Origin: Pseudomonas hefeiensis
GTDB taxonomy: Bacteria > Pseudomonadota > Gammaproteobacteria > Pseudomonadales > Pseudomonadaceae
Direction: 5' to 3'
Assembly (NCBI RefSeq): GCF_030687835.1
Contig: NZ_CP117449.1
Location: 5,585,001 to 5,649,000, forward strand
DNA: 64,000 nt
The notes beneath the pieces are model-generated. The model was given only the letters and a program-made list of their open reading frames with translations, searched no databases and had not been told where the DNA came from. Numbering within the stretch: position 1 is the first letter of the stretch; each line of letters opens with the position of its first letter. A program made the translations under genes and the position numbers. Shown one piece after another: positions 35,342-38,082 of the stretch.

Positions 35342-36196
35342 ATGACGATTCAATGGCATGAAGTAAACGCCGCACCCGGTATGTCCGCGCTGTACATGAA
35401 AGCCGCGACACGGCGCAAGGTCACCGGAAAAACCTTGCCCGAGGACGGATTGCGCCAAGTGATACAGGTCGATCCGCAACGCCTGGCGGCTTATCGCAAG
35501 GTCTGCGGTTTTGCCGAAAACGGGCTGCTGCCGCCGACCTATCCCCACGTGCTGGCGTTTGCCCTACAGATGCAATTGCTCACCGCCCGGGACTTTCCGT
35601 TCCCGTTGCTGGGGCTGATCCACCTGAGCAATCGCATCCGCGTACTGCGGCCCATGGGCGGGGTCAGCCAAGTACAGGCCCGCGTCAATGTCCAGAACCT
35701 GCAAGCCCATCCCAAGGGTGCGGTGTTCGACCTTGTGACTCGCATCGACGATCAACTGGGGCCGCTGTGGGAGGCCGAGAGCCAGATGCTCTGCAAGGGC
35801 GTCCAGCTTGACGGTGCGTTGGTGGAAGAGCCGCTGCAAGAGATCCAGGCATTGACTGAAGTGGCGCACTGGACCGCGCCGGCTGACATTGGCCGGCAAT
35901 ACGCCAAGGTGTCCGGCGATTACAACCCGATCCACCTGAGCGGCCTCAGCGCCCGGCTGTTCGGCTTCCCTACCGCCATCGCCCACGGCCTGTGGAACAA
36001 AGCCAGGACCCTGGCGGCGCTGGACGAACACTTGCCCGATGCCAACATCGAGATCGAGGTCACCTTCAAGAAGCCGGTGCGCCTGCCCAGCAAAGTGACA
36101 CTGCTGGCGAGTGCGGCGGGGTCCAGTGGGGATTTGCGACTGATCGGGTCCGGGGAGTTGGAACATATGGTGGGGAGCTGGCGGCCGGTTGGCTAA
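35342..36196 (+). CDS. MaoC-like hot-dog dehydratase
   Basis: A 284-aa MaoC-family (R)-enoyl-CoA hydratase or dehydratase. The C-terminal hot-dog domain carries GDYNPIHLSGLSARLFGFPTAIAHG, the hydratase 2 motif with its Asp and His. The N-terminal half resembles a second, degenerate hot-dog. ATG 35342 is chosen because GGGAG lies 8 bp upstream; an ATG at 35336 overlaps the previous stop. It works with the reductase encoded just before it. Confidence 0.82.
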   Translation: MTIQWHEVNAAPGMSALYMKAATRRKVTGKTLPEDGLRQVIQVDPQRLAAYRKVCGFAENGLLPPTYPHVLAFALQMQLLTARDFPFPLLGLIHLSNRIRVLRPMGGVSQVQARVNVQNLQAHPKGAVFDLVTRIDDQLGPLWEAESQMLCKGVQLDGALVEEPLQEIQALTEVAHWTAPADIGRQYAKVSGDYNPIHLSGLSARLFGFPTAIAHGLWNKARTLAALDEHLPDANIEIEVTFKKPVRLPSKVTLLASAAGSSGDLRLIGSGELEHMVGSWRPVG

Positions 36197-36222
36197 GGAC
36201 CTGCATCTTTGTTGAATGTGAT

Positions 36223-36246
36223 GCCGTCATCGCGAGCAGGCTCGCT
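36223..36246. repeat. Left part of a REP interrupted by the IS
   Basis: CCGTCATCGCGAGCAGGCTCGCT is a REP that stops abruptly at 36246. Its missing right part CCCACATTGG resumes at 37416 after the insertion. The inverted partner REP is at 37466-37490, so the element sits inside one REP of a doublet. Confidence 0.85.
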
Positions 36247-36262
36247 TGTATGTTTAGACTTG

Positions 36263-36400
36263 AAGGGGTGGGCGGGACTAAAAGCTCGATTCCGACTCTA
36301 GCCAGTACGGACCGTGGGAGACTTCTCGTCCCGCCCCTTCTACCCAAAGCGCCAATAAGGAATTCATCGGTAAAACCGACAATAGAGGCAAGCCAGCGCA
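36263..36400 (+). ncRNA. Putative IS110 bridge RNA
   Basis: The left-end non-coding region folds into two stem-loops upstream of the transposase. Stem 1 pairs GGCGGGAC (36271-36278) with GTCCCGCC (36328-36335) and encloses GCTCG (36284-36288), identical to the target left of the core, and GTGGGAG (36314-36320), complementary to core plus right target CTCCCAC. The second region, flanked by GCGC (36349-36352, 36396-36399) with the hairpin TCGGT/ACCGA, holds GGAATTC (36359-36365) and AGGCAAG (36386-36392), which partly match the IS right end (AGAATCT) and left end (CTTGTAT). Exact RNA ends are unknown. Confidence 0.65.
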
Positions 36401-36447
36401 AAGGTAGACCCCGACAAGCACCTAAACCCTAGCTCCGAGGATTCGCT

Positions 36448-37410
36448 ATGACAATCCTTACCTCGCAGACGGTTGTTGGTATTGATATAGCCAAGGCCGA
36501 AGTTGTTGTTTATCGCTATGACCTGCAAACCACTGACACCATCAAGAATGACCGAACATCCCTCAAACGCTGGCTTAAAACGTTGCCCGCCCAAAGTGCT
36601 CTAGCCGTCGAAGCAACCAACATCTACCACCTGGACACCGTCGAGCTGGCTCATGCGATGGGGCATCAGGTCTATGTCGTGGATGCTTATCGGGTGAGCA
36701 ATTATCGTCGCGGCATCGGCCAGCGGGCTAAGAACGATCCTTGTGATGCTCGTCTGCTGGCGCGGTATTTAACCAATGAACAGCACGAGTTGCGGCTCTG
36801 GAGCCCGCCACCGAAAGCCTACACGACGTTAAAAAGCCTGCTTCATAGGCGTGCGACGCTGGTCAAGAACCATACCGGCCTGATGTTGAGCTGGCACGAT
36901 GAGCCTCTGTTAAAAAAAACGCTGGCCACTCAGCAAAAGGCGTTCGAACAGGCGATTCAGGCCATTCAGAAGTTGCTACGAAAAGTCAGCAAAGAAGCGG
37001 GAATTGAGGCGAATATCGGCCGCTGCAAAGCCATCGAGGGCGTTGGTGAACTGGTCGCTACTGGATTGGCGACGAGTTTCATGCGAGGTGATTTTGCGGA
37101 CAGCGATGCATTTATCGCGTTTTTGGGGATGGACTTGAGGGTCGATGACTCCGGAAAAAAGAAGGGTCAACGGCACCTCACCAAGAAGGGCGATTCAGAG
37201 ATACGCCGATTGGCTCATATCGCTGCAATGACAGCACGCCGCTCGCCTAGATGGAAGCCGTTCTACGAGTCATACCTGGCGAGAGGTTTCTCAAAAACCC
37301 AGGCATTGGTGGTGCTGGCCCGAAAGTTATGCCGGGTGGCATTTGCTTTGATGAAAAATCAGAGCGAGTACCAGCCGACACCTATGTTGCAGGGTTGCCC
37401 TGCAACATAG
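36448..37410 (+). CDS. IS110-family transposase (DEDD recombinase)
   Basis: A 320-aa transposase that should insert and excise the element with guide RNA help. The RuvC-like N-terminal domain has the DEDD tetrad Asp13 (GIDIAK), Glu55 (AVEATN), Asp97 and Asp100 (KNDPCDARLLARY). The C-terminal Tnp20 domain includes AIEGVGELVATGLA and GMDLRVDDSGKKKGQRHLTKKG. The length is typical, with no frameshift, so it may be active. The stop codon lies inside a 13 bp perfect hairpin (37382-37410). Confidence 0.93.
   Translation: MTILTSQTVVGIDIAKAEVVVYRYDLQTTDTIKNDRTSLKRWLKTLPAQSALAVEATNIYHLDTVELAHAMGHQVYVVDAYRVSNYRRGIGQRAKNDPCDARLLARYLTNEQHELRLWSPPPKAYTTLKSLLHRRATLVKNHTGLMLSWHDEPLLKKTLATQQKAFEQAIQAIQKLLRKVSKEAGIEANIGRCKAIEGVGELVATGLATSFMRGDFADSDAFIAFLGMDLRVDDSGKKKGQRHLTKKGDSEIRRLAHIAAMTARRSPRWKPFYESYLARGFSKTQALVVLARKLCRVAFALMKNQSEYQPTPMLQGCPAT
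37382..37410 (+). other. Hairpin over the transposase stop codon
   Basis: CTATGTTGCAGGG, a TTG loop, and CCCTGCAACATAG form a perfect 13 bp stem that includes the last codons and the TAG stop. It ends five bases before the right border of the element, so it is both a transcript-end structure and a subterminal DNA palindrome. Confidence 0.8.
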
Positions 37411-37465
37411 AATCTCCCACATTGGTTCTTGGGTGTTCATGGGGCCTGCGTCCGGCACAAATCCC

Positions 37466-37490
37466 TGTGGGAGCGAGCCTGCTCGCGATG
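37466..37490. repeat. REP, partner of the IS-interrupted copy
   Basis: TGTGGGAGCGAGCCTGCTCG in the opposite orientation to the split REP at 36223-36246. Together they formed a REPIN before the IS insertion. Confidence 0.8.
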
Positions 37491-37524
37491 GCGGTGGCTC
37501 AGTTGGCTTCGATGCTGGATCTGC

Positions 37525-38082
37525 CTAGCGCGGCGGATAGTTCGCCAGGATCCGCGCAACCGTCTCACGCACCGCGGTGCTGCGATCAGTCGGGTTCGGC
37601 GAATGGCTGAGCAGTTGTTCATCACTGCCACGCCACACCAGCTTGCCGTCCTTGCCATCGAGCAGATCAATCTGCACCGTGGCGACCTTGTAGCTGATGT
37701 TGCGGGTTTCGTTGTACATCGGCCCGCCCCAATAGCCATTCCAGGGGCCGCCCCAACCGCCGCCATAGTTGGTCGTGACCTGCTGCTGGCGATCCTCGAC
37801 GATCAGGTAGGTCTGGACCATCACATCCCCTCGCCCGCCAGCCTGGGCCGGGCGCAGTCCGCGCTGGTCGAGTTGATCGGCAACCGCCTGACGGATCCGC
37901 TGTTCGGTCAGGTCGCTCTTGATGCGCGGATCATCGGGGCGATATTGCAGCGCCGGCTCTTTCCAGCTCCAACTGCGGTAAGCCGAGAAATCCCGGCTGG
38001 TGTCAAAGTCGTGGTTGACCGGGGTACCCGCACAGGCGCCGAGCAACAGGGTGAAAGCCAGTAGAGCGAGACGGCGAAACAT
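37525..38082 (-). CDS. DUF4136 lipoprotein A
   Basis: A 185-aa predicted lipoprotein with the lipobox LLLGACAG (Cys16) and a DUF4136 domain ([45 protein letters not shown]). A glycine/tryptophan-rich loop (GGGWGGPWNGYWGGP) lies in the middle. DUF4136 lipoproteins are envelope proteins of unknown function. It is followed by no other gene before the IS and lies 20 bp downstream of a second DUF4136 gene, so the two are paralogues in one operon. Confidence 0.85.
   Translation of the reverse strand: MFRRLALLAFTLLLGACAGTPVNHDFDTSRDFSAYRSWSWKEPALQYRPDDPRIKSDLTEQRIRQAVADQLDQRGLRPAQAGGRGDVMVQTYLIVEDRQQQVTTNYGGGWGGPWNGYWGGPMYNETRNISYKVATVQIDLLDGKDGKLVWRGSDEQLLSHSPNPTDRSTAVRETVARILANYPPR

Follow-up and report, generated by a model that had tools for sequence, protein, structure and literature searches.

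An ISPpu10-like IS110-group element of Pseudomonas hefeiensis that very probably uses a guide RNA of its own to choose where it inserts

Guide-RNA targeting was demonstrated for members of the IS110 family in 2024. The bridge RNAs of the family, and the covariation of their guides and targets across it, have been described (PMC11208160). The first element proven to work with a bridge RNA was IS621 of E. coli. In IS621, the left target guide (LTG) pairs to the left of the core, with the bottom strand, and the right target guide (RTG) to its right, with the top strand (PMC11208160), and the right donor guide (RDG) is split, with two bases flipped out (PMC11208158). ISPpu10 is one of six elements for which a figure legend in PMC11208160 gives predicted pairing of the bridge RNA. 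ISPpu9 and ISPpu10 are reported to insert in REPs at the same point, ISPpu10 with a 2-bp direct repeat, in 7/7 of its copies in P. putida KT2440 (PMC1525189). ISPpu9 is described as having a 244-nt leader, an overlying antisense RNA of ~180 nt (Asr9) and a downstream RNA (Ssr9) (PMC8450116). The IS1111 group is also RNA-guided, by seekRNAs (PMC11187229).

Here we describe a new member of this known kind of system (IS621, ISPpu10). The window, i.e., the whole stretch of DNA analysed, is 64,000 nucleotides of the Pseudomonas hefeiensis genome, and it contains an IS110-group, ISPpu10-like element which, judging from its sequence, very probably finds its landing sites by means of its own guide RNA. 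Sequence data show its ends, cores, guide words, guide-target covariation and catalytic residues.

The element, its transposase and its copies

The element lies on the plus strand at 36247-37415 (1169 bp including one CT core), with its limits set by comparison of copies in its own genome. It has the layout of the IS110 group: 201 bases upstream of the gene, 3 downstream of the stop codon and a CT core at both ends. The host genome, a single contig of 6,451,026 bases, carries five copies which are identical over 1164 bases and have different flanks, and in 5/5 of them a REP is split at the same CT. In the window, the left part of the split REP (36228-36246, plus strand) ends in the left target AGGCTCG (36238-36244) and the core CT (36245-36246), while sequence and copy comparison place the second core CT and the right part of the REP (CTCCCACA) at 37414-37421 (plus strand). 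The right end after the stop codon is short (37411-37413, plus strand), and its ATAGAAT (37407-37413) overlaps the stop. The REP pattern ARGCYNGCTCCCACA has 534 + 517 = 1,051 matches in the genome, and its reversed control has 0. An intact second REP in inverted orientation stands ~45 bases to the right of the split one (window 37466-37491), so the insertion struck one of a REP pair.

The transposase (recombinase) gene, 36448-37410 on the plus strand, encodes 320 aa. The protein matches PF01548 (DEDD RuvC-like domain), with D13, E55, D97 and D100 present, and PF02371 (Transposase_20), with the catalytic S235 aligned to S241 of IS621; in that alignment the DEDD residues and catalytic serine of IS621 are all conserved. 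It also scores 169.1 bits against NCBIfam NF033542, ‘IS110 family RNA-guided transposase’ (cut-off 140). A sequence search for solved structures found just two transposases, those of IS621 and ISCro4. Among the best 120 of 896 matches are relatives which their sources name ISPpu10, at 83% (P0045) and 63% (P0110) identity. Plasmid matches (2,115 records) were all below 60% identity, and at most 29.1% among the 30 listed; phage matches (19 records) reached at most 29.6% among the 5 listed.

Searching the genome with a model of the donor loop, for which 150 of 3,281 candidates were scored, found at least nine such elements, five of the window type and four of a related type. This second IS110 type (L006-L008 and L012) is 70-81% identical in matching pieces, has the guides AAGTCCG and AGGTTCG, and has a REP as left flank in 3/4 copies. 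Elsewhere in the window, a partial 16S rRNA gene occupies positions 1-693 on the minus strand, where the window edge cuts it.

The left end and its predicted bridge RNA

A sequence-only reading of the left end had pointed out a strong stem, two target-like words and two end-like words, and all five are borne out by the sequence. GGCGGGAC (36271-36278) is complementary to GTCCCGCC (36328-36335); GCTCG at 36284-36288 is identical to 36240-36244, directly left of the CT core (36245-36246); GTGGGAG at 36314-36320 is the reverse complement of CTCCCAC at 37414-37420; GAAT at 36360-36363 recurs at 37410-37413, within the right end; and CAAG at 36389-36392 is the complement of CTTG at 36245-36248. GCTCG and GTGGGAG each occur once within 36247-36447. 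GCTCG by itself is weak evidence, appearing in 19.9% of 20,000 dinucleotide shuffles of that region, and the base outward of it is mismatched (A36283 in the RNA, G36239 in the target). GTGGGAG appears in 0.93% of the shuffles, and GCTCG followed by GTGGGAG within 60 bases in 0.055%. The sense of both guides is correct: the LTG is identical to the top strand on the left of the core, and the RTG complements the top strand on its right.

Folding and the alignment of relatives predict a bridge RNA at 36257-36421 (plus strand, ends approximate), in which in silico modelling places a target loop and a donor loop. The 199 bases 36249-36447 have a folding z of -2.62, with 1/200 shuffles at least as good; the fold of the naked RNA pairs part of the LTG, which we count against the model. 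The predicted target-binding loop spans 36262-36340 (plus strand) and is closed by an outer stem of GAAGGGGTGGGCGGGAC with GTCCCGCCCCTTC, a helix also found in relatives. Within it, all on the plus strand, are the LTG AAGCTCG with AT next to it, at the core position (36282-36290), assigned from its 6/7 match to AGGCTCG and from covariation; an inner hairpin of CCGACT with AGTACGG (36292-36310), assigned from the relatives’ alignment, one pair of which is U-A in 30/34 rows and C-G in 4/34; and the RTG GTGGGAG (36314-36320), complement of CTCCCAC, followed by A36321 at the handshake position.

A MAFFT alignment of whole left ends (A1) misaligned the target stem, so we sought helices in each element separately and aligned the donor loop alone (A2). 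The target stem has 10-13 contiguous pairs in Pseudomonas left ends (32 distinct left ends were used); in L073 and L074 it has 6, and shuffles do equally well. Rfam gave nothing at gathering level for the left end; over 36150-37550 its sole matches were three below threshold (E 0.72 to 5).

The predicted donor-binding loop (36339-36408, plus strand) has outer stems TCTACC/GGTAGA and GCGC/GCGC and an inner hairpin TCGGT/ACCGA. Its putative left donor guide, AAGGAATT (36357-36364, plus strand), faces the right end ATAGAAT plus the core C with 5 Watson-Crick and 2 wobble pairs of 8. The putative RDG (36382-36393, plus strand) is split in an IS621-like layout, with AT at 36382-36383, G36388 and CAAG at 36389-36392; it faces CTTGTAT (36245-36251), with C36393 at the handshake position. 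These candidate donor guides show matches to the element’s own ends, which among relatives vary too little for covariation to bear on them. The donor outer stem beats shuffles in 23/32 left ends (fewer than 10 of 200 shuffles do as well), the figure being 10 or more of 200 in the other 9/32. In A2, 4/9 pairs of the GCGC stem and inner hairpin have double changes, which 0/500 shuffles reach. In the inner hairpin, two of its five pairs do not form in 11 and 18 of the 30 rows, respectively, and a +3 shift of the partners yields 3 double-change pairs plus 6 other pair types, compared with 4 and 5 for the actual structure.

We infer that the RNA is made and is needed for recombination. The element would leave as a circle, and its joined right and left ends would form a promoter expressing a bridge RNA of ~165 nt from the left end; the DEDD and serine transposase would then exchange strands at CT. 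Promoter scoring picks out a -10-like TATGTT (36249-36254, plus strand), which lies 17 bases from TTGCCC (37395-37400) in the circular form only. For 34/34 distinct junctions, the circle has a higher best promoter-like score than the integrated left end, as scored with hexamer weights and without a shuffle control. In 26/34 junctions the -10 of the best site falls within the right end, and in 8/34, including the window’s, the site spans the junction.

Guides and targets across relatives and hosts

The comparison drew on the best 80 of 122 confirmed related loci, from named genomes (71 labelled Pseudomonas), and on a search for the window’s own subfamily in 398 genomes of the genus, 13 of which had a match, the host included. 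An exact left-end word was lacking in 14/92 loci. L009-L011 duplicate the elements L006-L008 and were dropped from the early guide-target set, in which two rows were also skipped (a stray word and a missing flank); two stray words without the guide motif were left out of the further set. Removing 9 duplicates from 124 rows left 115 distinct elements, among which the kept row L042 is an assembly artefact.

The 7-base LTG matches the left flank at 7/7 in 62/115 elements, at 6/7 in 37/115 and at 5/7 or less in 16/115, one of the last being an assembly artefact; if G-T wobble is allowed, 73 are exact and 31 match at 6/7. The mean match is 6.28/7 in register, at most 3.25 at nine other shifts and 3.61 at the next-best left-end position, and 0/10,000 permutations reach the observed total. 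The guides AGGCTCG, AAGCCCG, AAGCCAG, AAGCCGG, AAGCTCG and AAGCTTG are each found with their own REP class. An exact target is lacking for 9/15 guide types, which are mostly one base off: none of the 8 elements with AGACTCG is exact, all being in AGGCTCG, and none of the 6 with CAGTCCG is in an exact target. The RTG is exact to the right flank in 106/109 elements that have one. L070 has GTAGGAG with CTCCTAC, both changed in step, and in L063, L097 and L111 the right target has changed and the guide has not. Across a tree of 66 transposase genes, the 14 guide types require a minimum of 17 guide changes.

As for the handshake positions, the base after GTGGGAG is A in 115/115 elements and complements the final T of the right end (the search pattern required this A, and no row was lost thereby). 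The base after CAAG is C with G at target -1 in 109/115, as handshake pairing expects. It is T in 5 elements of one lineage, L019 and those of G161 (L100, L111, L119, L124); 4/5 of these have C at target -1, so the position has changed and is not complementary, and handshake covariation was not found.

Two further observations concern L064 and G068. L064 (~1288, Pseudomonas fluorescens ISL-62) has no split REP; a 16-bp direct repeat, CTCCCACATTTGGTAG, flanks the element, and its left target does not match its guide. In G068, a one-contig genome, apparent 680-bp mini-elements without a transposase (L116, L145-L147) proved to be runs of N inside IS copies, so we do not claim non-autonomous derivatives.

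Covariation of this kind bears on what the left end does. It could be a transposase leader with a regulatory RNA, as in ISPpu9 with its 244-nt leader and ~180-nt antisense RNA (PMC8450116), the protein alone recognising REPs, and the window’s left end would indeed also be the gene’s leader. However, recognition by protein predicts neither co-change of guide and target nor a within-genome preference for one REP class, and we consider this explanation very unlikely; a regulatory role beside guiding could exist. Alternatively, the guide-like words may be functionless REP sequence which the left end acquired by gene conversion or shared ancestry. Contact with REP sequence would be easy given 1,051 pattern matches, but one word is sense and the other antisense with a hairpin between them, in the order of IS621, agreement does not extend beyond the guide register, and copies in a REP class unlike their guide are only 3/38. 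We regard such an origin as highly improbable.

A third explanation is that guide-target agreement mirrors the commonest REP class of each host, with no choice of site. REP classes were therefore counted genome by genome as background, with copies treated as independent insertions for the P values. For three guide classes, 35/38 copies were in the cognate REP class against 19.5 expected (P 8e-12), the exceptions being L023, L048 and L058. This test omits L043, L046, L064 and L072, whose left targets fall outside the classes; L019, L020 and L042 have guides of the three classes and no background entered. For the guide AAGCTCG, 19/29 copies across genomes were cognate against 9.5 expected (P 1.4e-6), a signal driven by G147. 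This second test omits L098 and L118 (G236, out of register), L022 (genome uncounted) and the genomes G044, G074 and G161 (other guides). For G000, the numerator uses a 14-base pattern and the denominator a 15-base pattern.

Some of these data would suit the commonest-class explanation: the cognate class exceeds 70% of counted sites in several genomes, and G363, G122, G236 and G068, with 8/9, 1/3, 1/2 and 3/3 copies in exact AAGCTCG sites, are singly not significant at 0.05. Yet where the cognate class makes up under half of the sites, 14/17 copies are still cognate against 3.6 expected. For example, 4/5 copies with guide AAGCCAG in G001 are in a class that accounts for 42 of 891 counted sites, and 5/5 counted copies with guide AGGCTCG in G008 are in a class of 180, beside one of 540. 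In G147, likewise, 6/7 copies are cognate where 106/1,099 sites (9.6%) are. Abundance by itself is therefore a barely credible account.

Guiding by the element’s own RNA is the reading we prefer. The sequence-only reading had taken the element for a self-guided, REP-specific recombinase, and covariation, protein domains, catalytic residues, CT cores and the long left end support this. It had also proposed asking of other copies whether the loop varies in step with the target: it does, also after correction for REP background.

The window’s guide and the comparison with known systems

Where the sequence-only reading went too far was in calling the element programmed for the REP it sits in. The left guide matches that REP at 6/7, but the one base by which it is off makes AAGCTCG an exact fit to another REP class. 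That exact target has 12 sites in the genome against 1,051 matches to the general REP pattern, and 0/5 own-genome copies occupy one: 4/5 are in AGGCTCG, with an A-C mismatch, and 1/5 in AAGCCCG, although the wobble-compatible AAGCCCG class is larger than AGGCTCG (618 vs 419). The REP type that the guide fits would thus be scarce in this host, and all five insertions would have used sites one base off. Relatives carrying the AAGCTCG guide often use exact sites, and the simplest reading is that the element arrived from a host with AAGCTCG REPs. We predict that the target AAGCTCGCTCCCAC is the best for the window’s guide and that its AGGCTCG and AAGCCCG versions are weaker.

A joint reading, to which we give about an even chance, is that in the REP-targeting IS110 elements of Pseudomonas the left guide is a fast-switching tag which follows the REP classes of successive hosts; that the window element is a recent arrival from an AAGCTCG-rich host, using one-mismatch sites here, where its guide class is ~1% of sites; and that the clade may run without the 5' stem-loop of IS621. 

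For practical purposes, genome sequence by itself suffices to recognise a bridge-RNA element and to read and check how it is programmed. Pseudomonas REP classes, which differ by one or two bases, provide a natural series for studying mismatch tolerance and retargeting in compact RNA-guided recombinases. The guide changes among relatives are themselves a useful natural series, and for engineering tests the clade supplies an RNA that lacks the 5' stem-loop and a right guide of 7 bases. A search of the titles of open-licence papers found none on guide changes across Pseudomonas REP classes.

Among known systems, ISPpu9 belongs to the same IS110 family and is set beside the window element here by its published description. 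The IS1111 group, in which ISPa11 also targets REPs, shares the transposase superfamily, but has its long noncoding region on the downstream side of the gene, whereas that of the window element is upstream. IS621 has in common with the window element the CT core, a REP target, the layout of the left-end RNA, an RDG split against CTTGTAT and the DEDD and serine residues, at 25% protein identity (79/311 aligned). The two differ in RDG spacing, which is AT, four bases, G, CAAG in the window and AT, TT, G, CAAG in IS621 (L093), and in RTG match length, which is 7 bases in the window’s clade and 4 in IS621. Our donor-loop model (R1) did not find the donor loop at the IS621 locus L093 (best E 0.55). 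The stem-loop 5' of the target loop in IS621 is absent in the Pseudomonas clade: ~19 bases before the target loop in L070, L073-L076 and L082 are missing from Pseudomonas rows, and this segment folds as a hairpin in L070, L074 and L082, the three tried. ISPpu10, known here from the literature and from the names given to relatives, is likewise inserted in REPs.
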